This document shows positions 29,771 through 61,701 of a stretch of DNA of 64,000 nucleotides, in pieces. Within the stretch, counting starts at the first letter, position 1. Each line of letters begins with the position of its first letter. The DNA lies in contig NZ_CP046056.1 in NCBI RefSeq assembly GCF_016132445.1, positions 1,612,001 through 1,676,000 on the forward strand. Reading direction: 5' to 3'. Under the pieces are notes generated by a model. It was not told where the DNA came from. It made no database searches and saw only the letters and a program-made list of their open reading frames with translations. This DNA comes from Venatoribacter cucullus (GTDB taxonomy: Bacteria; Pseudomonadota; Gammaproteobacteria; Pseudomonadales; Oceanobacteraceae). The position numbers and the translations under genes are program-made.

Positions 29771-29788
29771 ATATTAGTACATTCTTAT
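29771..29788. promoter_or_regulatory. BigR-like operator candidate
   Basis: ATATTAGTACATTCTTAT in the divergent gap. Arms TATTAG and CTTATT are imperfect, but the sequence is 16 of 18 identical to the perfect dyad at 61684-61701. A further AT-rich stretch (AATATTCGATATAC) follows. Likely binding site of the adjacent ArsR-family repressor. Confidence 0.6.
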
Positions 29789-29844
29789 TTAGCAATATTC
29801 GATATACAATACCTGACCATATCTGTCCGCTGCGGAGCTGGCTT

Positions 29845-30204
29845 ATGACAACCACCCCTTCCCTGCCGTCATCCGGCAGCGACCATGCCGCGCTGGCCGA
29901 ACACCGGCAGCAGGCGGTGCGGCTGCTGAAAGCACTGGCCAACGAACACCGGCTGAATATTCTGTGCTGCCTGCGTGAAGGAGAAGTATCGGTCGGTGAA
30001 CTGGCCCGCCGCCTGCCACTCAGCCAGTCGGCACTGTCACAGCATCTGGCCTGGTTACGCAGCGAACATCTGGTCGCCACCCGCCGCCATGCACAAACCA
30101 TTTTTTACCAACTGTGCGATGACAAAGCCGAACGTATTATTACCGTGCTGAACAGTCTGTACTGCGGCATCAACCGTGACGGAGCCCCTCATGCGGCTGA
30201 CTAA
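29845..30204 (+). CDS. bigR: BigR/SqrR-type ArsR-family sulfur-responsive repressor
   Basis: Winged-helix repressor of 119 residues. HTH SVGELARRLPLSQSALSQHL with wing near RRHAQTIFYQL. Cysteines at 41, 42 and 107 match the C41/C107 pair that forms a polysulfide bridge in SqrR, and the C42/C108 pair of BigR. No ArsR-type CVC metal motif is present. Neighbours (persulfide dioxygenase, SulP) support persulfide sensing. It overlaps sulP by 14 bases. Confidence 0.85.
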   Translation: MTTTPSLPSSGSDHAALAEHRQQAVRLLKALANEHRLNILCCLREGEVSVGELARRLPLSQSALSQHLAWLRSEHLVATRRHAQTIFYQLCDDKAERIITVLNSLYCGINRDGAPHAAD

Positions 30205-31873
30205 CACCCTGCAGAATTACCGCCGCGACTGGCTGGGTGCCGACCTCACGGCCGGCCTGATTGTCGCCATCCTGATTACCCCGCAAGCCATTGCCTACGC
30301 CATGCTGGCCGGTATGCCGCCGCAAGCCGGTCTGTATGCGGCGTTGTTGCCGGTTATTGTATATGCCCTGCTCGGCACCAGCCCGGTGCTGGCAGTCGGC
30401 CCGGTGGCGATTATCTCGTTAATGACCTTTGAAGCCCTGCAGCCACTGGCCAGCCCCGGCAGCAGCGAATATATGGCGCTGGCAGCGGGCCTGGCGCTGC
30501 TCACCGGCTTATGGCTGCTGTTATTTTTTCTGATTGATCTGGGGCGCTGGACCAACTTTATCAGCCACTCGGTTATTTCTGCCTTTACCAGTGCCGCCGC
30601 CATCCTGATTGTGCTGAGCCAGATCCGCCATGTCACCGGCCTGCCGATTCCGTCCGATGGCCCGCTGTGGCAACCCATTCAAACCCTGCTGAGCGCCAGC
30701 GATCAGTTACGCCCGGATGTATTGTTGCTGTTTGCTCTGGCTTTACTGCTGTTGCTGAGCTGGCAAAAAGGCATGCCCCGTCTTACCCGCCGCCTGCCAC
30801 AGTGGCTGGCCAGTTTGCTGAACAAAGCCGCACCGCTGGTGCTGGTAATCGCCGGTATTGCAGCGGTCAGCGGGCTGGCACTGCCGGTGAAGGTGGTGGG
30901 CGAATTACCGGCTGGTTTGCCGGCCCTGCAACTGCCCTGGCTGACCTGGCCGCAATGGCAGTCATTACTGCCTTCGGCCGCGGTTATTGCGTTAATCGGA
31001 TATCTGGAAAGTCTGGCGGTGGCGCAATCACTGGCTGACCGGCGTGGGCCGAAACTGCACAGCAACCAGGAGCTGCTGGCCCTGGGCGGGGCCAATCTGG
31101 TGGCGGCGTTCAGCCAGGCGTTTCCGGTCGCCGGTGGGTTTGGCCGCAGCGTGGTTAACCATGCGGCCGGCGCCAAAACCCAACTGGCCAGTATTATTAC
31201 GGCGGTATTGGTGGCGGTTATTTGTCTGTTCGCCGCCCGTTTATTTATGAACCTTCCCAATGCCGTTCTGGCGGTGATTATTGTGGTGGCCGTATGGCCG
31301 TTAATCCGTTTTGCCGAGGGCTGGCAGGCCTGGCGTTATCAGAAAAGTGATGGTCTGGTGTGGCTGATGACCTTTGCCGGCGTACTGCTGGGCGGTGCCG
31401 AAAGCGGCATTCTGCTGGGTATGCTGCTGTCGCTGGTACTGTTTCTGAAACGCACCAGCGAACCTCATATTGCCGAAATCGGCCGGGTCGGCAACAGCGA
31501 CCATTTCCGTAATATCCGCCGTCATCAGGTGGGCACCAGCCCAACCGTACTGATGATCCGTATCGACGAAAACCTGTACTTTGCCAACAGCCATTTTCTG
31601 CAGGAAACCATTGCAAACAGCCTGCAGCAACGCCCCGCTGTGCAGCACGTGGTGCTGGTCGGCAGTGCCATTAACCATATTGATTACATCGGCCTCGAAA
31701 CCCTGCAGCATCTGTTACAGGATCTGCGCGAACGTGGCGTACAACTGCATTTGGCCGAGTTCAAAGGTCTGGTGATGGACCGCCTGCAACGCACCGACCT
31801 GTTGCCGCAACTGGCACCGGGACGGATCTTCTTTACCGCCAGCGAAGCACTGCGCGAACTGGGGCAATGCTGA
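30191..31873 (+). CDS. SulP-family anion permease with STAS domain
   Basis: 560 residues: N-terminal SulP membrane domain of about 14 spans beginning GLIVAILITPQAIAYAMLAG, and a C-terminal STAS domain (about 445-550; TVLMIRIDENLYFANS, INHIDYIGLETL). Transports sulfate or a related anion across the inner membrane; in this context export or handling of sulfite/sulfate from persulfide oxidation is plausible. ATG 30191 (MRLTNTLQNY) was chosen over GTG 30176 because GGAG precedes it. Confidence 0.88.
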   Translation: MRLTNTLQNYRRDWLGADLTAGLIVAILITPQAIAYAMLAGMPPQAGLYAALLPVIVYALLGTSPVLAVGPVAIISLMTFEALQPLASPGSSEYMALAAGLALLTGLWLLLFFLIDLGRWTNFISHSVISAFTSAAAILIVLSQIRHVTGLPIPSDGPLWQPIQTLLSASDQLRPDVLLLFALALLLLLSWQKGMPRLTRRLPQWLASLLNKAAPLVLVIAGIAAVSGLALPVKVVGELPAGLPALQLPWLTWPQWQSLLPSAAVIALIGYLESLAVAQSLADRRGPKLHSNQELLALGGANLVAAFSQAFPVAGGFGRSVVNHAAGAKTQLASIITAVLVAVICLFAARLFMNLPNAVLAVIIVVAVWPLIRFAEGWQAWRYQKSDGLVWLMTFAGVLLGGAESGILLGMLLSLVLFLKRTSEPHIAEIGRVGNSDHFRNIRRHQVGTSPTVLMIRIDENLYFANSHFLQETIANSLQQRPAVQHVVLVGSAINHIDYIGLETLQHLLQDLRERGVQLHLAEFKGLVMDRLQRTDLLPQLAPGRIFFTASEALRELGQC

Positions 31874-32094
31874 TGACAGCACCCGAACATAAATCCGACC
31901 CTGTGCCACCAACGGCCGATCATCCTCAGACCCGCCCGGCTGAGAATACAGAAAATACGCCCACCAGCGGCCGTGACGGCCGCCGTTTTGTGATTATTCC
32001 GCAACAAGGCCCCCGTATACGGGTGCGCTATCGCGAAGGCAGCAGCGGCACCGGTGACTGTACGCTGTGCCAGATCAGCCCGGATAACCTCTGA
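31873..32094 (+). CDS. Small protein of unknown function with CxxC end
   Basis: 73 residues, MTAPEHKSDPVPP onward; Pro/Thr-rich first half, then a short RRFVIIPQQGPRIRVRYREG strand region and a CTLC motif near the C-terminus. No recognised family. The ATG overlaps the sulP stop (ATGA), so it is probably the last gene of the bigR-sulP transcript. An ATG two codons upstream is also possible. Confidence 0.55.
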   Translation: MTAPEHKSDPVPPTADHPQTRPAENTENTPTSGRDGRRFVIIPQQGPRIRVRYREGSSGTGDCTLCQISPDNL

Positions 32095-32098
32095 TACC

Positions 32099-32122
32099 CC
32101 TGCAAACTGCAGGTTAATTTTT
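32099..32122 (+). terminator. Terminator after the sulP operon
   Basis: Stem CCTGCA/TGCAGG with a 3-base loop, then TTAATTTTT, four bases past the small gene's stop. Confidence 0.75.
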
Positions 32123-32175
32123 GCCGCCCTGCTGGGTATGATGCGGTTCCGTCTTTTGCTGACCCGGTAACTGCC

Positions 32176-32661
32176 ATGACTCTGACCTACACCTTGCTGA
32201 TTCTTGCGGCGCTGGTAATTATCGCTGCACTGGCCTACTACGCCTGGCACCTGACCGCGAAAGTGAAAAACCTGCAGCAGACGCAACAGGACGAAGCCGC
32301 GCAGGCGGAGCTGCACCTGCGCAACCGCCAGCTGGAGTTGCTGCAGGATATCCGCTTTATTGCCCGCGCCGTGCTGGCAGAACAATGTGAAATTACCGAA
32401 GGCGTATTGCGCATTCAGTATTTAATGAGTGCGCTCGACCCCGATGCCTGGCAACTGGATGAACTGGCCACCCTGCGCCAACATCACGAAGCCACCGCCG
32501 GAATGCCCATTCTGGATGCTTACAAAGCGCTGCCGAAAAAAGAACAGTTCCGTCTCGACCGGGAACGCTGGACGCTGGAAGAGCGTCATAAACCAGCCGT
32601 GCAGCGCGAGTTGCAATGGCTGGTAAGCTACCGTTTTCCCGGCGTTACCCTGCTGCAATAA
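32176..32661 (+). CDS. DUF2489-family membrane-anchored protein
   Basis: 161 residues: one N-terminal helix (about 4-25), a short coiled coil and a cytoplasmic helical domain with conserved CEITEGVLRIQYLM and DAYKALPKKEQFRLDRERW, typical of DUF2489. Function unknown. Followed by yceI after 28 bases with its own ribosome site. Confidence 0.82.
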   Translation: MTLTYTLLILAALVIIAALAYYAWHLTAKVKNLQQTQQDEAAQAELHLRNRQLELLQDIRFIARAVLAEQCEITEGVLRIQYLMSALDPDAWQLDELATLRQHHEATAGMPILDAYKALPKKEQFRLDRERWTLEERHKPAVQRELQWLVSYRFPGVTLLQ

Positions 32662-32689
32662 ACCCGTTACTGATAATAAGGATTCTGCA

Positions 32690-33262
32690 ATGCGCACTCT
32701 GATACTGGCTCCGTTATTTCTGTTCGCCGCCCTGGCTCAGGCCGGCTGGCAACTGGAACAACCGTCTGAACTGACCTTTATGTCGTTCAAAAATACCCAT
32801 CTGGCTGAAGTTCATCGTTTTAACCGCCTGCAGGGCAATATTGCTGACAACGGTGAAGCCACATTGAGCATTGACCTGAGCAGCGTTGATACCGCCATTG
32901 CTATCCGCGATACCCGTATGCAGGAAATGCTGTTTGAAACCAGCCGCTTTGCCAGCGCCACCCTGACCGCCAAAGTGAATACCAAAGTGCTGCAACAGGC
33001 TGCCGCCGGTGCCATTCAGACCTATGACCTGGCTGGTAAACTGAGCCTGCATGGCCTGGAAGCCGATGTATCCGTACCGGTTTTAATTGTGCCGGCCGCC
33101 GATGGCCGTCTGGTGGTTACCAGCCTGAAGCCGGTGCTGGTGCAGGCCGACCAGTTTGAATTAACCGCTGGTATTCAGAAGCTGCGCGACATTGCCAAAC
33201 TGGAACGCATCAGCGAAGTGGTGCCGGTTAATTTCACGCTTATTTTCAGCCCCAAACCTTAA
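32690..33262 (+). CDS. YceI-family periplasmic lipocalin-like protein
   Basis: 190 residues, signal peptide (LAPLFLFAALAQA) and a YceI domain (LTFMSFKNTHLAEVHRFNRL, IDLSSVDTAIAIRDTRM). YceI proteins bind polyisoprenoids; ligand here unknown. Follows DUF2489 at 28 bases behind AAGGA. Confidence 0.88.
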   Translation: MRTLILAPLFLFAALAQAGWQLEQPSELTFMSFKNTHLAEVHRFNRLQGNIADNGEATLSIDLSSVDTAIAIRDTRMQEMLFETSRFASATLTAKVNTKVLQQAAAGAIQTYDLAGKLSLHGLEADVSVPVLIVPAADGRLVVTSLKPVLVQADQFELTAGIQKLRDIAKLERISEVVPVNFTLIFSPKP

Positions 33263-33281
33263 GGGCCTCGGCATACCCGCG

Positions 33282-33309
33282 CCACACCCGCCCTCAGCGG
33301 TGGGTGTGG
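33282..33309. terminator. Hairpin between convergent genes
   Basis: Arms CCACACCC/GGGTGTGG (33282-33289, 33302-33309), GC-rich centre; a T6 run lies 9 bases further on plus. Probably a shared terminator; it overlaps the end of the gene at 33294. Confidence 0.45.
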
Positions 33310-33515
33310 TTACGCAGTTTTTTCAGTAATTCTTCCACGTCTTGTTCCGCCAGCTGCATGGCATCCATCACGCTGGTATTAATAGCCGATTCAATCAGCA
33401 CCTCTAACGTACTGAAATGATAGTCACCAATGCGGCTGCACAATTCTTCCCCTAACACCCGGCGAAAATTATTCACCACTTTTTGCGCATGCAGATAATG
33501 CGGTCGGTCGTGCAT
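33294..33515 (-). CDS. Small protein of unknown function downstream of ppk2
   Basis: 73 residues, MHDRPHYLHAQKVVNNFRRV onward, acidic and helical, ending EELLKKLRNHTHR. Not assigned to a named family. AGGAGA lies six bases before the ATG. It begins nine bases after ppk2 and is likely the third gene of the cyclase-ppk2 operon. Confidence 0.65.
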   Translation of the reverse strand: MHDRPHYLHAQKVVNNFRRVLGEELCSRIGDYHFSTLEVLIESAINTSVMDAMQLAEQDVEELLKKLRNHTHR

Positions 33516-33524
33516 GTCAGTCTC

Positions 33525-34355
33525 CTAGGCTTCCCGCGCAGCGGTCGCCGGCTGCACAATCAGCGGATCGGGGGTTAAATTCAGGCTGGGTGATTTATGC
33601 CGGTAATCAAACTGATTCAGAACAAAACGCATGGCATTCAGACGGGCGCGTTTTTTATCGTCGGAACGGATTACCGTCCAGGGCGCATCGCTGTGGTGGG
33701 TGTAATGAAACATGGTTTCTTTGGCATCGGTGTAATCATCCCATTTATCCAGTGACGCCAGATCAATGGGGCTGAGTTTCCACTGTTTCAGCGGGTCAAT
33801 CTGACGGCTCTGAAAACGCCGCAGCTGCTCTTCCCGGCTAACCGAAAACCAGAATTTGAATAAGCGGATGCCGGAACGCACCAGCATTCGTTCCAGTTCC
33901 GGCACGGTACGCATAAATTCCATATATTCTTCGGTACTGCAAAAGCCCATCACCCGCTCAACACCGGCTCGGTTGTACCAGCTGCGGTCAAAAAACACCA
34001 TTTCACCGGCGGCCGGTAAATGATGGATATAACGCTGAAAATACCACTGGGTGCGTTCCCTTTCGCTGGGTTTTTCCAACGCCACCACGTGCGCACCACG
34101 CGGGTTCAGGTGTTCCATAAAGCGCTTAATGGTGCCGCCTTTACCGGCTGCATCACGGCCTTCAAACAAAATAACGATTTTTTCACCGCTTTCGCGTACC
34201 CAATTCTGTAATTTCAGCAGTTCAATCTGCAGGCTTTGCTTTTCCCGCTCGTACTGCGCCCGGCTCAGGCGTTCACCGTAAGGAAGATGCCGGCTTTTTT
34301 GTTCCGCAGGTTTGGCCGGCTGTGGAATAACCAGCGGATAATGCTGTTCGTTCAT
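33525..34355 (-). CDS. ppk2: Polyphosphate kinase 2
   Basis: 276 residues; transfers phosphate between polyphosphate and nucleoside phosphates. Walker A GRDAAGKGG (66-74), DRSWYNR (123-129) and lid/Arg segment near VSREEQLRRFQSR. Length and motifs fit single-domain PPK2. ATG 34355 (MNEQHYPL) follows AAAGGA; the GTG six codons upstream is disfavoured. Starts 21 bases after the cyclase gene. Confidence 0.93.
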   Translation of the reverse strand: MNEQHYPLVIPQPAKPAEQKSRHLPYGERLSRAQYEREKQSLQIELLKLQNWVRESGEKIVILFEGRDAAGKGGTIKRFMEHLNPRGAHVVALEKPSERERTQWYFQRYIHHLPAAGEMVFFDRSWYNRAGVERVMGFCSTEEYMEFMRTVPELERMLVRSGIRLFKFWFSVSREEQLRRFQSRQIDPLKQWKLSPIDLASLDKWDDYTDAKETMFHYTHHSDAPWTVIRSDDKKRARLNAMRFVLNQFDYRHKSPSLNLTPDPLIVQPATAAREA

Positions 34356-34376
34356 CAACAATCCTTTCTGCACGAT

Positions 34377-35378
34377 TTAATTCGGTGGCCGGGCGGCCAG
34401 AAAACAATCCCGCCCCTGTGCCTTAGCCTGGTAAAGATACTTGTCCAGCAAACGAATCACCTGATCCAGCTCAATGCGGCTGTGCGCCCGGGGCGTGACA
34501 ACCAGATAACTGCCCGAAGCGGTCATGGTAACCCGCTGACCGCTATCATTACGCACGTCCATTTGTCGGATAGCCTGCTGAATACGGGGCACCAGGCTAT
34601 CGAGCTGTGACCACGAACAACCGGGCACCAGCAGGGCAAACTCCTCACCGCCAAGCCGGCCAATGGGGTCAGAAGGCCGGACAATCTGGCGCAGGGTGTT
34701 GCATAACGCCTGCAGCGCACGGTCACCGGTGGCATGACCATGCTGGTCATTCACCTGCTTGAAGAAATCCAGATCGAGCAGAATAACGGCAAATTCGTGA
34801 AACTGGCGCAGCCCTCTGGCCCACTCGCGGGTATACAGGCGTTCAAACCCGCGGCGGTTTTCCACCCCGGTCAGCGGGTCGGTCAGCGCCAGCCGAGTCT
34901 GTTGTTCGCTTTGCTCAACCATTACCAGGCAGGCAGCAATGACCGCCGCCAGATGCTGCAGAAAATCGGTCGCCATGTCATCGCCGAAACGGTCGCGGCG
35001 GGTGGAAAATAATGTCAGTTTGCCCAGACAGCGTTCATGCCGCAGCAACGGCAACACAAGGCCACTGTGCCAGGGCGGGTTTACCGCCACCGGCCCCGGC
35101 CGGCACTGCGGCAAGTGGGTAACAAATTCCAGAGCTTCCAGCCAGGGGGCCTGTTCCGGGGTCAAAGACTGCCCCATGGACTGATACAACTGACCATCGG
35201 CATCGACCAGACAAAGCCTGATGTCATCCAGGCCAAACTGCTCAGGCAGCCCCTGTAACAGTAACCGCAGCAGGTCACTCCAGCTCTGACAAGACAACAA
35301 CTGTAATTCAAACGCCTGCAGCCGGTGCAACAACGCCTCATTGCGCCGGGCATTATCCAATAGTTGCTGTAAATCCAC
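34377..35378 (-). CDS. Diguanylate cyclase with GAF-like sensor
   Basis: 333 residues: N-terminal GAF/DUF484-like sensor (about 20-150) and GGDEF domain with active site GGEEF (243-247), DLDFFK, and an intact inhibitory RxxD (RPSD, 234-237), so it should make c-di-GMP with product inhibition. No membrane helix. GTG start at 35378. Probably co-transcribed with ppk2, linking c-di-GMP and polyphosphate. Confidence 0.9.
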   Translation of the reverse strand: MDLQQLLDNARRNEALLHRLQAFELQLLSCQSWSDLLRLLLQGLPEQFGLDDIRLCLVDADGQLYQSMGQSLTPEQAPWLEALEFVTHLPQCRPGPVAVNPPWHSGLVLPLLRHERCLGKLTLFSTRRDRFGDDMATDFLQHLAAVIAACLVMVEQSEQQTRLALTDPLTGVENRRGFERLYTREWARGLRQFHEFAVILLDLDFFKQVNDQHGHATGDRALQALCNTLRQIVRPSDPIGRLGGEEFALLVPGCSWSQLDSLVPRIQQAIRQMDVRNDSGQRVTMTASGSYLVVTPRAHSRIELDQVIRLLDKYLYQAKAQGRDCFLAARPPN

Positions 35379-35508
35379 GCGTTCACTGCTCCCTTTCCAA
35401 TGGGTTGATTATAGTGCGATCTGACAGGAACGCAGCCCAGGCAATAACTTAGCTGCCGCCTCTGCCACCTTTTGTTAAACTGCCGCGCTTTACCCACCCG
35501 GAAACGGC

Positions 35509-36324
35509 ATGAGCGCAAACGTCCTGATCTTCGACTCCGGTGTCGGAGGCCTGAGCATTGTCAGTGAAATCCGCCAGTTATTGCCCGGCTTACCGCTGCA
35601 GTACCTGATGGATTCCGCCGCCTTTCCTTATGGCACCAAGGCCGATGATTTTCTGATTCAGCGTATTCTCAGTGTCTGCACCAGCGCCGTGCGCGAGCTG
35701 AATCCGGATATTCTGGTGGTCGCCTGCAACACCGCCAGCACCCTGGCCTTACCAGCACTGCGCCAGCAATTACAGCTGCCGGTGGTCGGTGTGGTGCCAG
35801 CCATCAAAGTGGCGGCCGGTTTAAGCAGCAGTGGCCAGATTGGCTTGCTGGCAACCCCGGCGACGGTGAACCGCCCCTACACTGATGACCTGATCCGGGA
35901 ATTTGCCCCGCATTGCGAGGTGCGCCGCTTTGGCAGCGGCGAGCTGGTGCAATGGGCGGAAGATTTTATTGCCACCGGCAGCGTACCTGCCGGCCTGCAG
36001 GCCCACCTGCAGCACTGGCTGTATCAGCCCCGGCCACTCAGCCATGTGGTGCTGGGCTGCACGCATTTTCCGCTGCTGAAACCCCAACTGCAGCAGTTGT
36101 TTCCGGATATTGGCTGGGTCGATTCCGGTGCCGCCATTGCCCGCCGGGTCGCCACCCTGCTGGGCAATCAGGCCGAACGCCTGCAACACGCAGACAGCGC
36201 ACCCATTGGCTGCTTCTGGACCGGCAGCCAGCCGCCGGCGCCGGGCGTACTGCATTACCTGCAGCAGCTGGGGCTGCCGGGTGACCATGGTCAGCTGCAG
36301 GTGACCGAATTTTCTTATACATAA
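35509..36324 (+). CDS. murI: Glutamate racemase
   Basis: 271 residues; makes D-glutamate for peptidoglycan. Catalytic cysteine motifs ACNTAS (about 73-78) and GCTHFPLL (about 183-190), and DSGVGGLS at the start. Standard length. Divergent from the cyclase gene across a 130-base gap without obvious operator. Confidence 0.95.
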   Translation: MSANVLIFDSGVGGLSIVSEIRQLLPGLPLQYLMDSAAFPYGTKADDFLIQRILSVCTSAVRELNPDILVVACNTASTLALPALRQQLQLPVVGVVPAIKVAAGLSSSGQIGLLATPATVNRPYTDDLIREFAPHCEVRRFGSGELVQWAEDFIATGSVPAGLQAHLQHWLYQPRPLSHVVLGCTHFPLLKPQLQQLFPDIGWVDSGAAIARRVATLLGNQAERLQHADSAPIGCFWTGSQPPAPGVLHYLQQLGLPGDHGQLQVTEFSYT

Positions 36325-36346
36325 AAGCTGTTTGTATAAGTTTTTT
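36314..36346 (+). terminator. Terminator overlapping the murI end
   Basis: Stem CTTATACA/TGTATAAG with an 11-base loop, then T6. It begins inside the last codons of murI. Confidence 0.75.
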
Positions 36347-36349
36347 AAT

Positions 36350-36364
36350 TGAGTAAACTACTCA
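36350..36364. promoter_or_regulatory. Palindrome upstream of folE
   Basis: TGAGTAAACTACTCA, perfect 6-base arms around AAC, 28 bases before the folE ATG. Could be an operator or part of a promoter; unknown. Confidence 0.3.
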
Positions 36365-36391
36365 GGTATTACAACCAATCACGGTATCGAC

Positions 36392-36943
36392 ATGAGCAAT
36401 CTTGAAACCCTGTACCGTCAGGTACTGTCCGGACTGGGCGAAGACCCGCAACGCGAAGGCCTGCTGGACACCCCGAAACGGGCTGCCAAAGCCATGCAGT
36501 TTCTGACCAGTGGTTACACCACCGATATTAATGAAGTGGTTAATGGTGCTGTTTTCACCAGCGATAACGACGAAATGGTGGTGGTTCAGGGTATCGAGTT
36601 CTATTCCCTGTGCGAACACCATGTTCTGCCCTTTATTGGCCGCTGCCATATCGGCTACCTGCCGAATGGCCAGGTGCTGGGGTTATCCAAATTTGCCCGT
36701 ATCGTCGATATGTTTGCGCGCCGGTTGCAGATTCAGGAAAACATGACCAAGCAGATCGCCGAAGCCGTACAGGAAGTGACCGGTTGCCGCGGCGTGGGGG
36801 TGATTATGGAAGCCCAGCACATGTGCATGATGATGCGCGGCGTGCAAAAGCAGAATTCTATGATGCGTACCTCGGTGATGCTGGGTGACTTCCGCAGCAA
36901 CCCGGCCACCCGTGACGAGTTCATGCGCTTGATCGGGATGTAA
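36392..36943 (+). CDS. folE: GTP cyclohydrolase I
   Basis: 183 residues; first step of tetrahydrofolate (and queuosine) synthesis from GTP. Zinc motif CEHHVLPF (about 71-78) with second Cys in the HMCMMMRGV segment near 142-150. Family-length protein. Alone on its transcript or followed by cls after 40 bases. Confidence 0.96.
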
Positions 36944-36983
36944 ATATCCCGTTTACTGCCGTCATCAATGACGGGAGAAGAAC

Positions 36984-38381: not shown

Positions 38382-38383
38382 GG

Positions 38384-38411
38384 GGCTTGAGGCTTGAGGC
38401 TTGAGGCTTGA
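38384..38411. repeat. Heptamer tandem repeat
   Basis: Four perfect GGCTTGA units plus a partial fifth, starting two bases after the cls stop. GGGAGAC repeated twice follows. Together with the next feature this makes a G/T-rich stretch from 38382 to about 38505 without a gene. Confidence 0.95.
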
Positions 38412-38453
38412 GGCTGGACGGGAGACGGGAGACGCTTTTAGCGTTGAGTGTTC

Positions 38454-38479
38454 GGGGTTGGGCGGTTGGGCGTTCAGGG
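38454..38479 (+). other. Canonical G-quadruplex motif in the cls 3' region
   Basis: G-tracts at 38454-38457, 38460-38462, 38468-38470 and 38477-38479 with loops of 2, 5 and 6 bases fit G3+N1-7. It would be in the cls transcript, before the terminator at 38551. Confidence 0.6.
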
Positions 38480-38550
38480 TTAAGCGTTCGGCGCGCGCGG
38501 GTGAATAAACAGAGCTGATGATTAACGCAGGAATTATTGAGCCGGCATAA

Positions 38551-38578
38551 AAAAGCCACGCACGGGGCGTGGCTTTTT
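38551..38578. terminator. Bidirectional terminator between cls and ompW
   Basis: A-run, stem GCCACGC/GCGTGGC with a 5-base loop, then T5. Serves both convergent genes. Confidence 0.85.
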
Positions 38579-38600
38579 AAGCTGTGAAGCAATCAGAACA

Positions 38601-39209: not shown

Positions 39210-39274
39210 ATTAACTTCCTCATTACAGGTAAGAACCAGATGGCGCCAGACTACCCTGCTTCCGGCTGCCTATT

Positions 39275-41243: not shown

Positions 41244-41244
41244 T

Positions 41245-43238: not shown

Positions 43239-43239
43239 A

Positions 43240-51226: not shown

Positions 51227-51234
51227 AGTGACGG

Positions 51235-53041: not shown

Positions 53042-53132
53042 AAGACCTCCACCGCTGAACCAACCTGAACAGTAACAAGGGAGCCTCCGAATCACTCTGC
53101 ACAGCTCTGCGCGGGTTATCCGTAGGCTTTCA

Positions 53133-53163
53133 AGGTTAAACCCGCGAGTAGCTCACAGGTCAA
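53133..53163 (-). promoter_or_regulatory. MerR-type promoter/operator of the merR-permease operon
   Basis: Minus strand: TTGACC (-35, 53158-53163), a 19-base spacer and TAACCT (-10, 53133-53138). A 21-base dyad, ACC...GAG...CTC...GGT (53140-53160), covers the spacer. The over-long spacer with a central dyad is the hallmark of MerR-activated promoters. Confidence 0.7.
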
Positions 53164-53242
53164 GTCTCTGTACAGCAGCTGACTGAACTTTATATGCTGA
53201 CTATTTATCATCACTGCGAAAGACGCTGAGAAGGTCACAAAA

Positions 53243-53268
53243 TAGCCATAACCTTGGCTACTTTTTTT
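53243..53268 (+). terminator. Orphan terminator-like hairpin
   Basis: Stem TAGCCA/TGGCTA, loop TAACCT, then C and T7 on plus; extended by CACAAAA/TTTTGTG flanks. No plus-strand gene lies upstream, so it may end a small RNA or be part of the cyclase gene's leader. The gap from 53042 to 53350 holds no protein gene I can support. Confidence 0.5.
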
Positions 53269-53350
53269 GTGCCAAAATGTAAGTGTCAGATAACAGAAGA
53301 TTTCTTATTGTTCATCTGAGTGGTCATATCCCTACAATTAATGAGGCTTC

Positions 53351-54946
53351 ATGCTCACCATACGCCAGCTTTTTTATTATTTAACCAGTGCCTACATAAT
53401 ACTGCTGCTGGCAGGGTTACTGCTGGGTCGCTGGTTCTGGTTTTATCCGGTCGAGCTGGAAAACTATCTGCACCAACAGCAAAAAGAGCTGTTCAGTTTG
53501 TCGTCAGCCATCGACTTGCGCCAGCAACAGTTACTGGCCATGGCAACCGATTATGGCCACTGGAATGAAACCTGGAATTTTGTCCGCCAGCCGGATCAGC
53601 CCGGCGATTATCTGCAGCATAATTTTACCGCTGCCAGCATGGAAACCCTCAGTCTCGATGCCGTAGTCATTCTTAACCGTGAATATCAGCCGCTACTGGC
53701 TTACCAACTGGATGAACAGCAACAACTGCTGCTGCCGGCAGACAATAATTTTTTTAACTGGACACGCAGTGAATTTGCCCACGAAAGCCTGCTGATTGCG
53801 GAACCGGTTAATGATGTCCTTAACATTGGTGAGCATGCTTATCTGGTGGCGGTAAGCCCGGTGTTGCAAAGCGACCATCAGGGACCACAGGCTGGCTGGC
53901 TGCTGTTTTTTCAACGCGTTGATGAACAATTACTGACCAACATCAGCAATATTATCCGGGTGGGTCTGCGCGAAATACCGCTGAGCACGATGGATGCCAG
54001 CACCATTATGCCGCTGGAGCTGCCGATACATGAAGTGGCGGCCAGCCATCCGCGCTGTGTGTATAACAGTAATCAGCTGCCGGTGCTCTGTCTGGAACTG
54101 CAGCACGATATGACCAATATGCCGGAGTTTATGAACCGCGGTATTTTTATTGCGTTAATGTTTATGATCTTGCTGCCAGCCCTGTTATTTGCCGTTTTAT
54201 TACACCAACTCACCTCACCAATCCGGCAAGCCACCAGCTTATTACAGCGGAATAATTCTGATGGTTTGTTGCGGCCGGTATTATTTTCTTCGCCATTGCG
54301 GGTCAAAGAACTGCGCCAGCTGCGCAATGCCTTTAACGAACTGGTGTACACCGCCCGTCAGCAACAAGCCAAGCTGGAACAACTTTCGAATACCGACCGG
54401 CTGACCAACATTGCCAATCGCCGGGCCTTTGATGAAACGCTGGATAACACCTGGCGCCGCCTGTGCCGGCATTCCCAGCAAGCGGCGCTGGTGTTGTGTG
54501 ATATCGATTATTTCAAAGCCTACAACGACCACTATGGCCATCAGGCCGGTGACGATGTACTGCATAAGGTGGCGCAGGCGCTGAAAGGCTGCGCCCGCCG
54601 TACTGATGAAATCGCAGCCCGTTTTGGCGGTGAAGAATTTGTGCTGATTTTATACGTCGATAACGATGTGGACATGCACAGCATCCGCGAGCGCATTCAG
54701 GAATCCATCCGCAATCTGAAAATTCCGCATGGGTATTCCAATACCGGCCCCATCCTGACGCTCAGCTTCGGCGTGGCCTGGATTCGTGACAGTGGTGCCT
54801 GGCTGGAAAATTACACCGCTGCCGACTGGCTGCATGCCGCCGACAGTGCGTTGTATGCCGCCAAAGGCGCTGGACGAAACTGCAGCTTAGTGCAGATCAT
54901 CAGCGCCGATCAGCCGTTTACAGATCAACCGAAATTGCTGCAATAA
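53351..54946 (+). CDS. CHASE4-GGDEF membrane diguanylate cyclase
   Basis: 531 residues: helix about 10-30, periplasmic CHASE4 domain (about 50-245, containing [12 protein letters not shown]), second helix about 255-280, and a GGDEF domain (about 350-520) with [14 protein letters not shown] and [10 protein letters not shown]. The usual RxxD inhibitory site is RTDE, so product inhibition may be lost. Its last 29 bases overlap the convergent purT. Confidence 0.9.
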
Positions 54947-56123
54947 CTGCATTGGCCTTATCTCGCGCGGCGGTAATATCCGCACCGCGCGCCAGAGCCA
55001 CACCCAAACGGCGCTTGCCGGCCAGATCCGGTTTACCAAACAAACGCAGTTGCGTATCCACTGCCGCCAGCGCCTTATCTACCCCGTTGTAACGCATCTG
55101 TGCCGACTGCCCGGCCACCAGCAATACCGAGGATGCCGACGGCCCATGCTGCTGAATATTAGGAATCGGCAGGCCCAGAATGGCGCGCACGTGCAAAGCA
55201 AATTCGGATAAATCCTGCGAAATCAGCGTCACTAAGCCGGTGTCGTGCGGGCGCGGTGACACTTCACTGAAAATCACCTCATCGCCTTTAACAAACAACT
55301 CCACACCGAATAAACCCAGGCCACCCAGATCATCGGTAATGGTGCGGGCAATCTGCTGCGCTTTTTCCAGCGCCGCGGCGGTCATGGCCTGTGGCTGCCA
55401 GGATTCCTGATAATCACCATCCTGCTGACGGTGACCAATGGGATCACAGAAACTGGTCACCACCTCACCGGCAGCGTTTTTGTGGCGGATGGTCAGCAGT
55501 GTGATTTCAAAATCAAAATCGACAAAACCTTCGACAATCACTTTGCCTTTACCGGCGCGGCCACCTTCCTGGGCGTAGGTCCAGGCCTGTGCCAGCTCAG
55601 TCTGCTCACGGACAAAACTCTGGCCTTTGCCGGACGAGCTCATAATGGGTTTCACCAGACAAGGCAGACCGATTTCAGCCACCGCCTGCAGAAAATCGGC
55701 TTCGTTATCGGCAAAGCGGTAAGTGGAGGTCGGCACCTGCAGGGTTTCGGCGGCCAGGCGGCGAATACCTTCCCGGTTCATGGTCAGCTGCGCTGCGCGG
55801 GCCGACGGAATCACGGTAAAACCTTCCTGCTCTAATTCGGCCAGCGTGGCGGTGGCAATGGCTTCAATTTCCGGCACGATCAGGTGCGGTTGTTCGGCTT
55901 CAATTACCGCACGCAGGGCCGCACCATCGAGCATGCTGATCACGTGGGAACGGTCCGCCACCTGCATGGCCGGCGCATTGGCATAGCGGTCTACGGCAAT
56001 CACTTCACAGCCCAGGCGCTGTAATTCAATCACCACTTCTTTGCCCAGCTCACCAGAGCCACAGAGTAAAACGCGGGTGGCCGTGGGGGAAAAAGGCGTA
56101 CCAATCGAACCTTGGGTAGTCAT
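54918..56123 (-). CDS. purT: Formate-dependent phosphoribosylglycinamide formyltransferase
   Basis: 401 residues; ATP-grasp enzyme that formylates GAR in purine synthesis using formate. [20 protein letters not shown] (N-domain), [13 protein letters not shown] loop, [27 protein letters not shown] (metal site). Followed on the same strand by DUF1289-yrdA-nudL as upstream neighbours. Confidence 0.95.
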
Positions 56124-56136
56124 AAAGAATCCTGTG

Positions 56137-56349
56137 TTATGGCTTTTTAACCGGTACTCCGGGCACCGGTATGAAATTCATGGCCGCGCGCTCGCGGGCA
56201 GCGACCCGTTGTAAAACCTGCCTGCGCTCGGCATCGGTCAGGCGTGTCCACTGGGCAATCTCGTCACCGGTGCGGTAGCAACCCACACAGATATCCTGCT
56301 CATCCAGAGCACAAATACTGACGCAGGGCGATTTAACGCGCTGGCTCAC
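56137..56349 (-). CDS. DUF1289-family small protein
   Basis: 70 residues with the DUF1289 cysteine pattern [18 protein letters not shown], plausibly binding zinc or iron, then the conserved [17 protein letters not shown]. Function unknown. Overlaps the yrdA-like gene by four bases. Confidence 0.85.
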
Positions 56350-56870
56350 AATTCAACGACCTGCAGTTCGGTGCGGTAACGGCGGGCGTTGTGCACATAA
56401 TGGGCGGCGGACGCTTCCAGCATTTTTTGTTGCTGTTCACTCAGCTGGCGCTTAATAACCGCCGGTGAACCGACCACCAGCGAACCATCGGGTATCTCCA
56501 TGCCCTCGGGGATCAATGCATTGGCGCCAATAATACAGTGCTTGCCGATGCGGGCTTTGTTCAGCACCACCGCATTAATACCAATCAGGGAATAATCCCC
56601 CACCGTACAGCCGTGCAGCATGGCGTTATGGCCCACCGTCACACCGCGGCCCAGCGTCAGCGGAATGCCGCCATCGGTGTGCAGTACCGCGTTGTCCTGC
56701 ACATTGGATTGCGGGCCGATGGTAATCAGGTCATTGTCGCCACGGATCACCACGCCAAACCAGATACTGCTGTCATCGGCCAGTTCAACACTGCCGATAA
56801 TGCGGGCATTGTCGGCGACGAACACATTTTGGCCCCGCTGCGGACGCCGTTGGCCAAGCTGATAAAACAT
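56346..56870 (-). CDS. yrdA: Gamma-carbonic anhydrase-like hexapeptide-repeat protein
   Basis: 174 residues of left-handed beta-helix, YrdA/PaaY type. Metal histidines lie in [11 protein letters not shown] and GHNAMLHGC. Catalytic activity of the YrdA group is doubtful. Between nudL and the DUF1289 gene in one run. Confidence 0.88.
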
Positions 56871-56891
56871 GCGTTGCTCCTTTAAACCCGG

Positions 56892-57464
56892 TTAAACGCG
56901 AAAGGAAATATCACAATCCCACAGATTGTTCATCATCTCGGCAATCATCATGGCGGTGAGGCCCCAGATGTGAAAACCCTGATAATCGTAACTGGGAATG
57001 CGGATGGTGCCGCGCTCAAAATACTGGCTGGGTGGCTGGCGGAAATGACTGAGCGGCACGGTAAACACCGCATCCAGCTCATCCGGATTGGCCTGTAACG
57101 GCAGCTGCGGCGGAATCACCCCCAGCACCGGCGTAACCAGATAGCCGAAGCGCGACACCACCTGATCCAGCTCGCCGATCACCTGCACCTGCTGCAGCGG
57201 CAGCGCCACTTCTTCTTCCGCTTCCCGCAGCGCCGTCATCACAATGCTGGTGTCGGTATCGTCACGCTTGCCACCGGGAAAGGCCACTTCGCCCTGATGG
57301 GTGGACAGGTGCAAAGCCCGCCGCGTCAGCAGCAGCTGCGGCTCAGTTTCATTGGTAATGGCCACCAGCACACCGGCCTCGGCCAGTTCCGGCTGACACA
57401 CACGACGCGGCTGATGCTGCTGCAAACGTTGCTGCAGATAACAGGCAAGGGATAATTGGGTCAT
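56892..57464 (-). CDS. Nudix CoA pyrophosphatase NudL-like
   Basis: 190 residues; Nudix box GGKRDDTD...REAEEEV (about 61-84) preceded by the CoAse-specific LLLTRRALHLSTHQGEVAFP. Expected to hydrolyse CoA and derivatives. First gene of the nudL-yrdA-DUF1289-purT run. Confidence 0.87.
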   Translation of the reverse strand: MTQLSLACYLQQRLQQHQPRRVCQPELAEAGVLVAITNETEPQLLLTRRALHLSTHQGEVAFPGGKRDDTDTSIVMTALREAEEEVALPLQQVQVIGELDQVVSRFGYLVTPVLGVIPPQLPLQANPDELDAVFTVPLSHFRQPPSQYFERGTIRIPSYDYQGFHIWGLTAMMIAEMMNNLWDCDISFRV

Positions 57465-57521
57465 GCCGGCATTCTAATAGCTGCCCGCCACCGCCACCAG
57501 CGCCAGACGCCTGCCAGACGC

Positions 57522-57833
57522 TCAGAACGTTTCCAGCCGCCAGACGTCAAACGCCGGTTCTTCATAAGGATGGGCTTGCCGCAGGGCATTTACCGCGGCC
57601 TGAATATGCTCATCGGCACAGACCATTTCCACCCGGAACTCTTCAACCCTTGAGGTTTCATGCAAACGGCCGATAAAAGGTTCAGCGCCCGCTGTCGGGC
57701 GGAATTGTCCGGTACCGGCCACCTGCCAACAACAGGCTTCGTAATGACCGATCCGGCCAGCCCCGGCATCAAAGACAGCTTCTTTCACCGCATCCAGGTG
57801 CGTGGGCGGAACAAAAAATGCAAGTTTGTACAT
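57522..57833 (-). CDS. YqfO-like (NIF3 C-terminal) small protein
   Basis: 103 residues; ferredoxin-like fold of the YqfO/NIF3 middle domain (MYKLAFFVPPTHLDAVKEAV, GRIGHYEACCWQ, AHPYEEPAFDVW). Possibly metal-binding; function unknown. Divergent from the chemoreceptor gene by 88 bases. Confidence 0.85.
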   Translation of the reverse strand: MYKLAFFVPPTHLDAVKEAVFDAGAGRIGHYEACCWQVAGTGQFRPTAGAEPFIGRLHETSRVEEFRVEMVCADEHIQAAVNALRQAHPYEEPAFDVWRLETF

Positions 57834-57921
57834 AATCAGACGGTTCTCAATAATGTGCGTTATGACGGGAATGGTCTAAAGTATTCACCTGAATCTTTTT
57901 TTGCCGTAAGGATTATTCACA

Positions 57922-59529
57922 ATGGCCAATGCTGTGTCGATTCAGCGCAAAGTGTACTTCGCTCTGGGCAGTATTTTTCTGCTGGTACTGGTAGTTGTTA
58001 TCAGTGTCGCAGTATCCGCTGAAAAGAAACTCAGTACCGAAATGGTACACAGTCAGCTGAAAGACAAAGCGTCCGGTTATCTGGACACCATGAATATGCT
58101 GATGATCTCCGGCGCCATTGCCAACCGCGAGATGGTCCGTACCAAATTGTTGTCTGATAACAACATTGTCGAAGCCCGTATGCTGCGTGCGCCGTCCATT
58201 GATGCCATGTACGGCAAAGGTCTGGAACACGAATACCCGCTGGACGAACTCGACCGCCGGGCTCTGGCCGGTGAAGAAATTATGTTGGAAGAAGATGGCG
58301 AAAATGGCCATACCATGACCTATCTGACTCCGGTATACGCGCACGAAGATTACCGCGGCACCAACTGCCTGCCCTGCCACCAGGCACAGGAAGGCGACAT
58401 TCTGGGTGCCATCCGCATCAGCTATTCCCTCGATGAACTCGATGGCCATATTTTCAATAACATGATGACCATGGCGCTGATTCAGGCGGCCATGTTTGTC
58501 AGCGCCCTTATTTTGTTGTCCCTGCTGCTGCGCCGCTTTGTTATTTCACCAGTGCGCAGCATGCACCGCACGTTGGATACCATGGAACGTGACTCCGACC
58601 TGACGCAACAGGTGCGGGTGGATACTCAGGATGAAATCGGCCGTACCGCGATGGCACTGAACAAAATGATTGCCCGCTTCTCCGATTCCCTGCGTCAGGT
58701 GGTTGGCTCGTCCCACGAACTGGAAGAATCGGCCGGCCAGATTCAGCAGTCATCCCAGGCATCCCTGCAGGCCGCCAACGCCCAGAAAAGTGAAACCGAA
58801 CATATCCAGCGTTCCATTGAAGAATTGCATCAGAGCATTCAGACCGTGATGACCAACGCGGAAGAAAGCAGCCGCGCCTCCGCCGAAGCCAAAGTTGTGG
58901 CCGGCCAGGGCGTCAGCAAAACCGATCTGGCCTCGGCCAGCATTGAAACCATGAACAACGCCATTCAGTCAGCGTCCGGGGTCATTGCCTCGCTGGACGA
59001 GCGCAGCAACAACGTCGGAAGTGTGCTGGAAGTGATTAAAGGCATTGCCGAACAAACCAACCTGCTGGCCCTGAACGCCGCCATTGAAGCCGCCCGCGCC
59101 GGCGACTCTGGCCGTGGTTTCGCCGTGGTTGCTGATGAAGTCCGCACGCTGTCGCAGCGCACTCACAAATCAACTCAGGAAATTGAGAGTATGATCGAGC
59201 AGCTGCAGGCCGAAGCCCGTCAGGCTGTGCATTCCATGGAAAATGCCCAGAGCACCGCCAGCGAAGGCATGGAACGGGTGCGGGAAGCCGCGCTGGCACT
59301 GCACAGCATGATTCAGCACGTTGAACGCATGAACCAGCTGAATGCCGAAACCCTGAAGAGTATGCAAGTACAGGTGGAAGTCAGCCGTAACGTCAGCGCA
59401 GGGGTAGAAAGCATCAGCGGGCATTCTTACCAGAGTGCCGACACCGCCGCTCAAACCGCCGAGATTTCACGCCAGCTGGTTACAATGGCTCATCATCTCA
59501 GCACCCTGGTTAACCGTTTCCGCTTATAA
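57922..59529 (+). CDS. Methyl-accepting chemotaxis protein with c-type heme motif
   Basis: 535 residues: helix 1 about 13-32, periplasmic Tll0287/DUF3365-like sensor domain with CLPCH (149-153), helix 2 about 184-203, HAMP (about 205-258) and a signalling domain with the tip [15 protein letters not shown] (about 380-394). The CxxCH should bind heme covalently in the periplasm, pointing to redox or gas sensing. No C-terminal CheR-binding pentapeptide. Own terminator follows. Confidence 0.9.
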
Positions 59530-59542
59530 CCAGCCTATGGGT

Positions 59543-59575
59543 GGCGGCCTGCAGGCCGCCGCCTTCCCTTTTTTA
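59543..59575 (+). terminator. Terminator after the chemoreceptor gene
   Basis: Stem GGCGGCC/GGCCGCC with loop TGCA, then GCCTTCCCTTTTTT. Confidence 0.8.
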
Positions 59576-59595
59576 CCACATTCCCACAGCCAGCC

Positions 59596-59889
59596 TCAGC
59601 CGGTGCAGTTTTCCAGTTCGGTCAGTAAGGCCAGGGCTTCGCTTTGCGAACTGCCGCAACAGTAAGCAACGACCTGAAAAGAAGCACAAACCGCCGGCCG
59701 CGCCGGATCGGTAAAAATATCGCAGTAAAAATCAGCGTTCAGATGAACACAGCGCACCCCGGCCGGTTTGCCCTGTGGCATACCGGGAATGGGTGAGCTG
59801 ATGGACGGCGCAATACAGCAGGCACCGCAACCGGCGCGGCAAGCCATGCTTTCGTCCGGCAGCGGTTTAATAACGATAGCGTTTGGCAT
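59596..59889 (-). CDS. YkgJ-family cysteine cluster protein
   Basis: 97 residues with many cysteines: CRAGCGACC near 17-25, then RCVHL, YCDIF, VCASF and CCGSS. YkgJ-like proteins may bind Fe-S or zinc; function unknown. Its 5' end overlaps the next upstream gene by 23 bases. Confidence 0.82.
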   Translation of the reverse strand: MPNAIVIKPLPDESMACRAGCGACCIAPSISSPIPGMPQGKPAGVRCVHLNADFYCDIFTDPARPAVCASFQVVAYCCGSSQSEALALLTELENCTG

Positions 59890-60235
59890 CCTGCACCTTC
59901 TGCTGCTGCAGTTCTTTCCACATCACCAGATTGTAACGGCGGGCATAGCTCTGCATGCGTCGCAGTTCCTGCGGTCTTTGTTCAATATTGGTGAACGTAC
60001 GCCAGCGCTGATTCAGCACCTTAACGGCGTAATCTTGCTGTACCTGTCCGGCCTGCGCTTCAGTCAGCCCCGGAAATTCCAGCCCATCCGCCATCTCCAG
60101 CGCCACAAACTCATAATTGCGGCTGGCCACCGCGGCTTTGGCATCTTCAACCGGAAATTCCAGCCCGATCGTTTCATCGGCCAGCGCCGGCAGCCACCCA
60201 AGCAGGGCCACCAGTACGATACTCAGTTTTTTCAT
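59867..60235 (-). CDS. Predicted secreted protein of unknown function
   Basis: 122 residues with signal peptide (MKKLSIVLVALLGWLPALA) and a charged helical body ending KRYRY. Not recognised. ATG 60235 preferred to TTG one codon earlier. It precedes ykgJ in the same transcript, with a 23-base overlap. Confidence 0.65.
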   Translation of the reverse strand: MKKLSIVLVALLGWLPALADETIGLEFPVEDAKAAVASRNYEFVALEMADGLEFPGLTEAQAGQVQQDYAVKVLNQRWRTFTNIEQRPQELRRMQSYARRYNLVMWKELQQQKVQDAKRYRY

Positions 60236-60386
60236 CAATCTTGCCCATCACAGAATCCCGCGCAGTATAGCCGAGCAGGCTCAGACTGTTGCAACCACCG
60301 CACAGGCTGTTGCCGGCCCAGCCCGCGCTTGCCATCACCCCTTACGCGGGATAGCCTTGGCCGGCTTTTTTACCGGACCGCTGTCT

Positions 60387-60923
60387 ATGCTGCGACTTGT
60401 TTTTATTACGGCCCTGATCCTGCTGCCATCCATCGGCAGTGCCGAACCCACCAATTTCCGTGCCGGTATCGGTGCTTTTGCCCTGGATATCGGCCATGCG
60501 CCGGCCGGTCTGCCCGACGGCAGCCAGACCGGTGTCAGCCTGTTTGGTGAGTTTCCGCAAAGCAACCATACCGCCTCGCGCTTTATTCTGTACCGCATCG
60601 ATGGCGGCGACGGGGTCAGACTGACCGGCGGTGAAACCCAGTTAATGTGGGGCATGGGCCTCGCCCAGCCGGGCTTCCGCTTATACACCGGACCGGCCTG
60701 GCACTATGACCGTATGCGGGTAACACGCAGCGGCGGCCACGACACCCGTACCTTTAATGGCTGGGGCTGGCAGATCGGTACCGGCTGGCAATACCGCGCC
60801 GTCACGCTGGACGTTGCTGCCACTTTCCGCGACCGCCACGACTACAACCGCGAAACCCGCCGCGCCGGTTTACCCAAAGGCGATGTCTGGACGCACAACC
60901 TGTTGCTCAGTTACCGCTTTTAA
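60387..60923 (+). CDS. Predicted outer-membrane barrel protein
   Basis: 178 residues: signal peptide MLRLVFITALILLPSIGSA, then alternating strand pattern (RAGIGAFALDIG, WGWQIGTGWQYRAVTLDVAA) ending NLLLSYRF with C-terminal Phe, suggesting a small eight-strand barrel. No specific family recognised. ATG 60387; the frame is open further upstream but without a signal-peptide start. Eleven bases before the pseudouridine synthase gene. Confidence 0.65.
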   Translation: MLRLVFITALILLPSIGSAEPTNFRAGIGAFALDIGHAPAGLPDGSQTGVSLFGEFPQSNHTASRFILYRIDGGDGVRLTGGETQLMWGMGLAQPGFRLYTGPAWHYDRMRVTRSGGHDTRTFNGWGWQIGTGWQYRAVTLDVAATFRDRHDYNRETRRAGLPKGDVWTHNLLLSYRF

Positions 60924-60934
60924 AAGGCCAGCTC

Positions 60935-61624
60935 ATGACCCTGCCTGAAGGCACCCCGGATTTAACCTCCTGTCGGCTGGCCCGTGGTCACGACTGGCTG
61001 GCCATTAACAAACCCGCCGGCATTGGTATGCACAGCGAAGACGATGTGGCCGGACTGGTGGTACTGGCCAGCAACGCCTTTGGCCAGCCGCTGTGGCCGG
61101 TGCACCGGCTGGATAAGGTCACGTCAGGGGTGTTATTGCTGGCCACCAGCGCCAGCGGAGCCGCCCGCCTCAGCGCCCTGTTTGCCGAACATAAAATGCG
61201 CAAATATTACCGTGCCCAAAGCCACAGCCGGCCGCAAAAAAAACAAGGCTGGATCAAAGGTGATATGAGCAAAGGCCGTAACGGCAGCTGGCTGTTATTA
61301 CGCAGCCAGAATAATCCGGCCATTACCCGCTTTGTCAGCGCCTATGATGAAGCCAGCCAGACCCGTACTTTCTTATTGCATCCCCTTACCGGCCGCACCC
61401 ACCAGCTGCGCGTGGCCATGAAAAGCCTGGGTAGCCCGATTGACGGCGACCAGCGTTACCGTGGTGCCGCCGCCGACCGTACTTACCTGCACGCAGCGGC
61501 GCTGTGCTGGGATGATGAACAACCCGATGGCAGCGTACAGCGCATAGAACTGACCTGCTCTCCTGCCAGTGGCCAGTGGGTCAGCACCGCCGCGGACTGG
61601 GAAAAACCCTGGTTATTATTCTGA
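60935..61624 (+). CDS. RluA-family pseudouridine synthase
   Basis: 229 residues, compact form without S4 domain (TIGR01621-like). Catalytic HRLD motif (PVHRLDKVTSGVLLLAT, about 55-71) with the essential Asp, and the C-terminal GRTHQLRVAMKSLGSPIDGD. RNA target unknown. Confidence 0.9.
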   Translation: MTLPEGTPDLTSCRLARGHDWLAINKPAGIGMHSEDDVAGLVVLASNAFGQPLWPVHRLDKVTSGVLLLATSASGAARLSALFAEHKMRKYYRAQSHSRPQKKQGWIKGDMSKGRNGSWLLLRSQNNPAITRFVSAYDEASQTRTFLLHPLTGRTHQLRVAMKSLGSPIDGDQRYRGAAADRTYLHAAALCWDDEQPDGSVQRIELTCSPASGQWVSTAADWEKPWLLF

Positions 61625-61683
61625 ACCGTCATCATCTGCTCCTATACTGAAGCCGGCACCTGCGCGGGTGGGTTGCATTCCGA

Positions 61684-61701
61684 ATATTAGTATATTCTAA
61701 T
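61684..61701. promoter_or_regulatory. Second BigR-like operator, ahead of the RND operon
   Basis: ATATTAGTATATTCTAAT includes perfect arms TATTAG/CTAATA around TATATT (61685-61702). It is 16 of 18 identical to the site at 29771-29788 and lies about 67 bases before the membrane fusion gene. Likely operator of an ArsR-type repressor, perhaps the BigR-like one here. Confidence 0.6.

Follow-up and report, generated by a model that had tools for sequence, protein, structure and literature searches.

In a window of 64,000 nucleotides from Venatoribacter cucullus (NZ_CP046056.1, positions 1,612,001 to 1,676,000; coordinates below count from its first letter), a BigR-like ArsR repressor gene and a distant resistance-nodulation-division (RND) pump operon are preceded by similar operator-like sequences. 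Our comparison of sequences makes it very probable that a single persulfide-released ArsR repressor controls the divergent sdo and bigR-sulP genes, a gene for a protein with a YgaP-type transmembrane domain (YgaP-TM) and this RND pump, which belongs to an unnamed group. This degree of confidence covers the regulation, not the substrate of the pump. The original prediction had reported the two sequences, ATATTAGTACATTCTTAT and ATATTAGTATATTCTAAT, on the plus strand of two promoter regions, and both are indeed found there (operators 1 and 2, Table 1). On direct reading they agree at 16 of 18 positions, as had been claimed. The description of operator 2 as a perfect dyad was overstated: in its best register (TATTAG-TATATT-CTAATA) the arms are perfect and pair at 6/6 positions, while symmetry holds at only 16 of 18 positions. 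In operator 1 the arms ATTAG and CTTAT pair with one mismatch. The similarity extends downstream to 29 bp in total, a purely descriptive figure since the pattern was derived from both sites.

The pair of sites alone is only suggestive, because random windows give a comparable match. When the sdo-bigR intergenic region (29738-29844, 107 bp) was compared with the rest of the window, exactly one partner was found at 16/18 identity or more, namely operator 2, and Markov-1 random windows of the same dinucleotide composition held at least one such partner in 4/40 cases. An expectation of 0.03 was obtained from a pattern built on both sites themselves and flatters them. In a scan of the genome (2.83 Mb, single contig), however, TATTAGTAYATTCTWAT matched without mismatch only at these two places. 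With the reverse reading of operator 2 set aside, the next separate match, at 2 mismatches, lies ahead of the YgaP-TM gene. A slightly wider (tight) pattern gave three sites in this genome, at bigR, the pump and YgaP-TM, and 70 strand-hits over 55 genomes compared to 5 for the reversed control. The loose form ATTAG-N6-CTAAT with 2 mismatches was discarded as useless on its own, as its 319 hits per strand genome-wide were below the reversed control (807). Judged from the sequences, the real support for the sites is their conservation among relatives and not the bare match of the pair.

Nine genomes were compared from the GTDB genus of the window, which is that of Thalassolituus marinus. The operator is present at the pump and at sdo/bigR in 9/9 genomes, and a third site, with one mismatch at most, likewise in all nine. 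In the aligned pump upstream regions all 18 columns of the operator are invariant, compared to 27 of the 187 columns outside it, and operator 2 is not outscored by any other window of 18 columns. The TTGCA of the candidate pump promoter is also invariant; this promoter (TTGCAT-17-TCTAAT) is a by-eye reading, and the automated promoter scan reported none at the pump. At bigR, 16 of the 18 operator columns are invariant and 11 of 112 windows score higher, the top-scoring ones being shifted into the shared tail AGCAATAT. Eight of the nine third-site loci were printed, and by eye the site stands just ahead of a similar gene start in these eight; in V. cucullus the gene behind it lies outside the window and encodes 69 amino acids (aa) with a YgaP-like_TM domain (PF11127), according to a Pfam scan of this genome only.

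Other candidate sites were not retained (G and L numbers denote genomes and loci). One, with 3 mismatches, lies ahead of a sulfide:quinone reductase (SQR)-like gene (G000:704113), and by eye its dyad is not kept upstream of the nine genus orthologs. A fourth site, the 17-mer TATAAGCACATTCCTAT (G000:C1:2520719-2520735; L024) between genes identified by eye as pilM and ponA, is identical in 9/9 genomes and was not counted because it shares bases with a TATAAT on the pilM side and its flanks are conserved as well in the three loci printed. The SQR-like gene (L231-L239) has a conserved upstream element of its own, ACTTTATGCCTAT-like and other than the BigR dyad.

At the family level the pump dyad follows the presence of BigR. 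Pump loci were fetched from 30 of 34 family genomes (G000-G033), and the dyad was found at one mismatch or less in 17 of the 22 with a BigR ortholog and in 0/8 without one (Fisher p 0.0002, without correction for phylogeny). Intragenic control windows gave 0/30 at up to 2 mismatches. Upstream of bigR the 18-bp dyad was recovered at this same threshold in 27/30 regions, but also in 2/30 control windows, so the threshold is lax there. As a separate observation, the BigR-less genus g7 (L088, L093, L095) has a common ATTGGAATATAGTAAT-like element ahead of the pump.

The dyad recurs in distant lineages. In a set of 11 related loci it is exact in 8, the other three (L033-L035) being remote or partial homologs; L025-L028 apparently correspond to G004, G001, G005 and G007, as their coordinates match, and are not independent. 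L029-L032 (three from Hyphomicrobiales, one from a Chromatiales bin) carry ATTAG-N6-CTAAT without mismatch upstream of the pump, and their adaptors are 41-46% identical; in L029 the dyad is found some 277 bases ahead of the matched adaptor, within the longest open frame, which has an uncertain start. The best ArsR matches in these four genomes are 38-54% identical, that of G062 being uncertain with an internal stop. G061 carries the exact dyad before the pump (L031) and also before a Blh phosphatase/sulfurtransferase-type gene beside a BigR-like ArsR (L131). A draw of 150 genomes from the order around G061 contained the pump (E<=1e-50) in three and, G061 aside, the dyad in one of two; L170 and L177 of this draw are apparently one locus. 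In a phylum draw of 398 genomes the adaptor was found at E<=1e-45 in 39 including V. cucullus, and loci were obtained from 29 of the 38 others. An upstream dyad with one mismatch or less was present in 5/29 and with 2 mismatches in one more, compared to 0/29 intragenic controls at 2 or less. In G593 and G421 the dyad stands before YgaP-TM rather than the adaptor.

Gene linkage points in the same direction. In seven of the 29 phylum-draw genomes (G556, G362, G572, G534, G451, G593, G421) a two-cysteine BigR/HlyU-type ArsR gene lies about 2.3 kb or less from the adaptor, and by eye both cysteines are present in 7/7. Ten regions were read, these seven together with G334, G424 and G312, which were picked for their dyads and make the sample non-random. 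BLAST detected YgaP-TM in 8/10 regions, with Pfam confirmation in both that were scanned (L240 and L246). The dyad occurs at one mismatch or less in 7/10, with none in L240, L241 and L243. Gene orders include ArsR-YgaPTM-adaptor-permease (L240) and ArsR-dyad-adaptor-permease-YgaPTM (L242). L243 and L245 encode a coenzyme A (CoA)-disulfide reductase-like protein with a rhodanese domain, under the NCBIfam cut-offs, and a similar open reading frame (ORF) is seen in L244 (unscanned); a separate rhodanese occurs in L244 and L248, and Sulf_transp or DUF6691 genes in L243, L244 and L249. On this linkage pattern, the sensor, YgaP-TM and the pump make up a module that recurs; in the genus of the window its members are unlinked and share an operator instead.

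The regulator is an ArsR/SmtB winged-helix protein (HTH_5 48.4 bits, cut-off 22; NF033788 89.5 bits, cut-off 55) with the two-cysteine arrangement of sulfur sensors: its ILCC (41/42) and LYC (107) align with ILC and LYC of HlyU, and Cys 91 is extra. HlyU is also the closest relative with a solved structure (102 bits), followed by 13ct/6o8l (73 bits), which we take to be SqrR, BigR (66 bits) and YgaV (60 bits). The regulator gene adjoins sdo divergently, the placement beside a persulfide dioxygenase gene that marks BigR-type operons. Sdo matched the SDO part of NF040641 (Blh) with 333 bits, under the full-length cut-off of 625. The start of sulP overlaps the end of bigR, and the two genes probably form one operon. 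The promoter predicted for sdo (TTGCTA-16-TATAAT, minus strand 29795-29768) has its whole spacer taken up by operator 1, which also reaches 3 bases into the -10 element.

Table 1. Features of the two loci, in window coordinates unless a locus label is given
Feature	Position	Strand	Details
sdo	28871..29737	-	persulfide dioxygenase-type metallo-beta-lactamase (MBL) protein, 288 aa; Lactamase_B
Operator 1 (putative)	29771..29788	+	ATTAG-N6-CTTAT, between divergent sdo and bigR; likeness to operator 2 runs on to 29799
bigR-like ArsR repressor gene	29845..30204	+	119 aa; HTH_5; Cys 41, 42, 91, 107
SulP/STAS anion transporter (sulP)	30176..31873	+	TIGR00815 437.9 bits, over cut-off; alternative start ATG 30193
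Candidate pump promoter	61673..61701	+	TTGCAT-17-TCTAAT, by eye; overlaps operator 2
Operator 2 (putative)	61684..61701	+	ATTAG-N6-CTAAT dyad; best register 61685-61702; shared tail to 61712
RND periplasmic adaptor (membrane fusion protein, MFP)	61769..62815	+	348 aa; TIGR01730 215.6 bits, over cut-off
RND permease	62818..64000, beyond window edge	+	PF00873; full gene L138:2819-6007, 1062 aa
CHASE5 sensor histidine kinase gene	L138:6163-7713		after pump operon; kinase domains

The pump operon combines an adaptor with a permease carrying the transmembrane Asp pair, as expected of an RND efflux pump. Asp414, Asp415 and Arg973, the latter in the relay region, are invariant in the 21 permeases compared, and the Asp pair presumably acts as in AcrB. 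No invariant cysteine was found in these 21 permeases, so covalent sulfur handling inside the permease is not indicated. The permease shares 55-61% identity with the linked, Alphaproteobacterial and Chromatiales members and 22% with the neighbouring RND paralogue. None of the 16 named multidrug or metal RND permease subfamilies listed in NCBIfam came over its cut-off, the best being RND_permease_2 with 473.5 bits against 1250, and the best solved relative is MexK with only about 245 bits. In a permease tree the single distant outgroup was placed inside on a long branch, so the tree provides no test of one-clade status. As to the surroundings of the pump, an ORF of similar size and similar start to the histidine kinase gene also follows it in L025-L027 and L141, and directly behind it comes another RND adaptor/permease pair, convergent and identified by eye (L138:7698-12001).

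Simple repression lifted by persulfide is the most likely mode of control, because the operators overlap predicted or by-eye promoters and relatives of the regulator lose DNA binding after exposure to sulfide, polysulfide or persulfide, according to the parts of the papers available (PMC5823870, PMC10509353, PMC9774250, PMC12423496). DNA binding and persulfide release would be properties that the regulator has in common with its protein family. In this mechanism, the product of 29845-30204 would be a repressor that senses persulfide through a dithiol and belongs to the HlyU/SqrR/BigR/YgaV group, and its reduced dimer would bind the ATTAG-N6-CTAAT dyad overlapping promoter elements at three unlinked places, namely sdo|bigR-sulP, the RND pump operon and the YgaP-TM gene outside the window. 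Rising low-molecular-weight persulfides or polysulfides would bridge Cys41/42 and Cys107, take the repressor off the DNA and induce the three units. Persulfide would be oxidised by the dioxygenase and the anionic product moved by SulP, and in the envelope YgaP-TM and the RND pump may deal with sulfur species or with molecules modified by sulfur. The assignment of the pump to a persulfide- or sulfide-responsive regulon, made in the original prediction, thus stands for membership, for which the genus footprint, the co-occurrence with BigR, the distant recurrence and the ArsR linkage argue, and persulfide as the inducer is carried over from the family. That the pump exports a sulfur-linked toxic compound, as the original prediction also suggested, fits the context and may be proposed tentatively.

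A number of observations weigh against a common BigR-type regulon. The regulator reached only 85.9 bits with the BigR equivalog NF040642 (cut-off 155 bits); it is therefore BigR-like and not BigR sensu stricto, and its sequence is nearer to HlyU. The published SqrR operator rule, ATTC-N8-GAAT (PMC9774250, available in part), speaks for the regulon in that it overlaps the pump dyad and fits 17 canonical pump sites exactly in 6 cases, with one mismatch in 9 (window included), with two in 1 and with three in 1. On the other side, the rule fails at the Alphaproteobacterial and Chromatiales sites (3-6 mismatches), which leaves ATTAG-N6-CTAAT as the wider common element. In the phylum draw, 23/29 pumps have no dyad at 2 mismatches or less upstream of the adaptor, and the linked clusters of G556, G362 and G534 have none at one mismatch or less across the stretch read. 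Untraced hits of the tight pattern occur in G014 and G023, which have no BigR, and in four order-level genomes (G038, G044, G049, G051). The BigR-less genomes span few lineages (g6, g7, g8 and one g3), and one of them, G031, is only 81% complete. Finally, five of the 22 BigR-bearing family genomes, all of genus g2, are without the canonical pump dyad.

These g2 genomes bear on whether the pump dyad is occupied by a different regulator, such as a second ArsR-type protein or some other protein that binds dyads, and the likeness reflects related recognition. By eye, their pump regions (L084, L085, L087, L089, L091) have ATATTAC-N6-GTAATAT in place of ATATTAG-N6-CTAATAT, complete in four and with one arm mismatch in the fifth (G032; L087), and their bigR promoters keep ATTAG-N6-CTWAT or are one mismatch off. 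A sixth g2 genome, G028, kept the canonical pump dyad. From the sequences, a change of the g2 pump operator to another regulator is possible. The V. cucullus genome contains seven HTH_5 matches, bigR included, and would offer other binders; however, its remaining matches to the BigR protein cover partial stretches and do not exceed 41% identity, its own bigR promoter has the same extended element as the pump, and the pump dyad is absent from the eight BigR-less family genomes examined. We consider another regulator at the window's pump improbable. Chance likeness of AT-rich or promoter-derived sequence, with no common regulator, could account for a pair found in 4/40 random windows and for the overlap of operator 2 with a putative -10 element. 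Yet the whole 18-mer is invariant in 9/9 genomes and recurs in other classes, and just three near-exact sites exist in the genome, at bigR, the pump and YgaP-TM, so that this already disfavoured explanation is very improbable.

A weightier alternative concerns the substrate. The pump may belong to the persulfide regulon and transport something other than sulfur compounds, with persulfide as a general stress signal for a multidrug or lipid exporter. MexR provides the precedent: it frees mexAB-oprM upon sensing sulfane sulfur, so that an RND pump is derepressed as proposed here, although MexR is a MarR-family regulator and MexAB-OprM a multidrug pump (PMC11211675, available in part). The closest solved permease, MexK, is consistent with such a role; the sequence fixes no substrate, and the 21 permeases compared have no invariant Cys. 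Against this, the repeated clustering with YgaP-TM shows a specificity that a general drug pump would not need, and some genomes add rhodanese, CoA-disulfide reductase-like and sulfur-transport genes beside the pump. We regard a non-sulfur substrate as a realistic possibility, though not the favored one.

The proposed regulon resembles known systems in part, as far as the available portions of the papers go. Like the BigR regulon of Xylella/Agrobacterium and Acinetobacter (PMC5823870, PMC7315123), it has a two-cysteine ArsR repressor with a persulfide dioxygenase in the operon. The binding of BigR is to the -10 region, polysulfides inactivate it (PMC5823870), and further targets away from the operon were proposed for Acinetobacter BigR (PMC7315123). 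The targets named there are Blh, YeeE/YedE/PDO2, pilus and dehydrogenase genes, with no RND pump among them, unlike here. SqrR and YgaV (PMC9774250, PMC9995734) belong to the same family, and ygaVP pairs the sensor with YgaP, whose transmembrane domain type is a regulon member here; our system differs in its broader conserved dyad ATTAG-N6-CTAAT and in having an unlinked RND operon as target. HlyU of Vibrio, the closest solved relative, reacts with persulfides, and by eye the operator oligo printed for it follows the frame of our dyad, with a single mismatch in each arm; HlyU acts on exotoxin genes, and no RND target is named in the part available (PMC10509353). A 2025 paper stated, on the basis of gene neighbourhoods, that RND efflux pumps seem to be among the targets of sulfane-sulfur ArsR regulators (PMC12423496); in contrast to those cases, the pump in the window is unlinked and tied to its regulator by a conserved operator. 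None of the literature matches listed had a title linking this pump group to a BigR-type operator, which argues only weakly that no such work exists.

The known targets of persulfide-sensing repressors include oxidation enzymes and small sulfur transporters. The present finding is a solid and testable extension of these regulons, RND targets for such regulators having already been inferred (PMC12423496, available in part). A wider generalization, which we hold more loosely still than a sulfur-linked substrate, is that a distinct unnamed RND group, present in Alpha- and Gammaproteobacteria, might together with YgaP-TM be dedicated to ridding the inner membrane or periplasm of sulfane sulfur or persulfidated molecules. 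Dithiol ArsR persulfide sensors would control it either through gene linkage or, as in V. cucullus, through an operator that scattered genes have in common. If true, a dedicated RND pump would be the envelope-spanning efflux arm of the defence against reactive sulfur, and an uncharacterised pump group in several proteobacterial lineages would gain a natural function and a class of candidate substrates. For one marine genus, this would amount to a concrete and testable regulon of three promoters.

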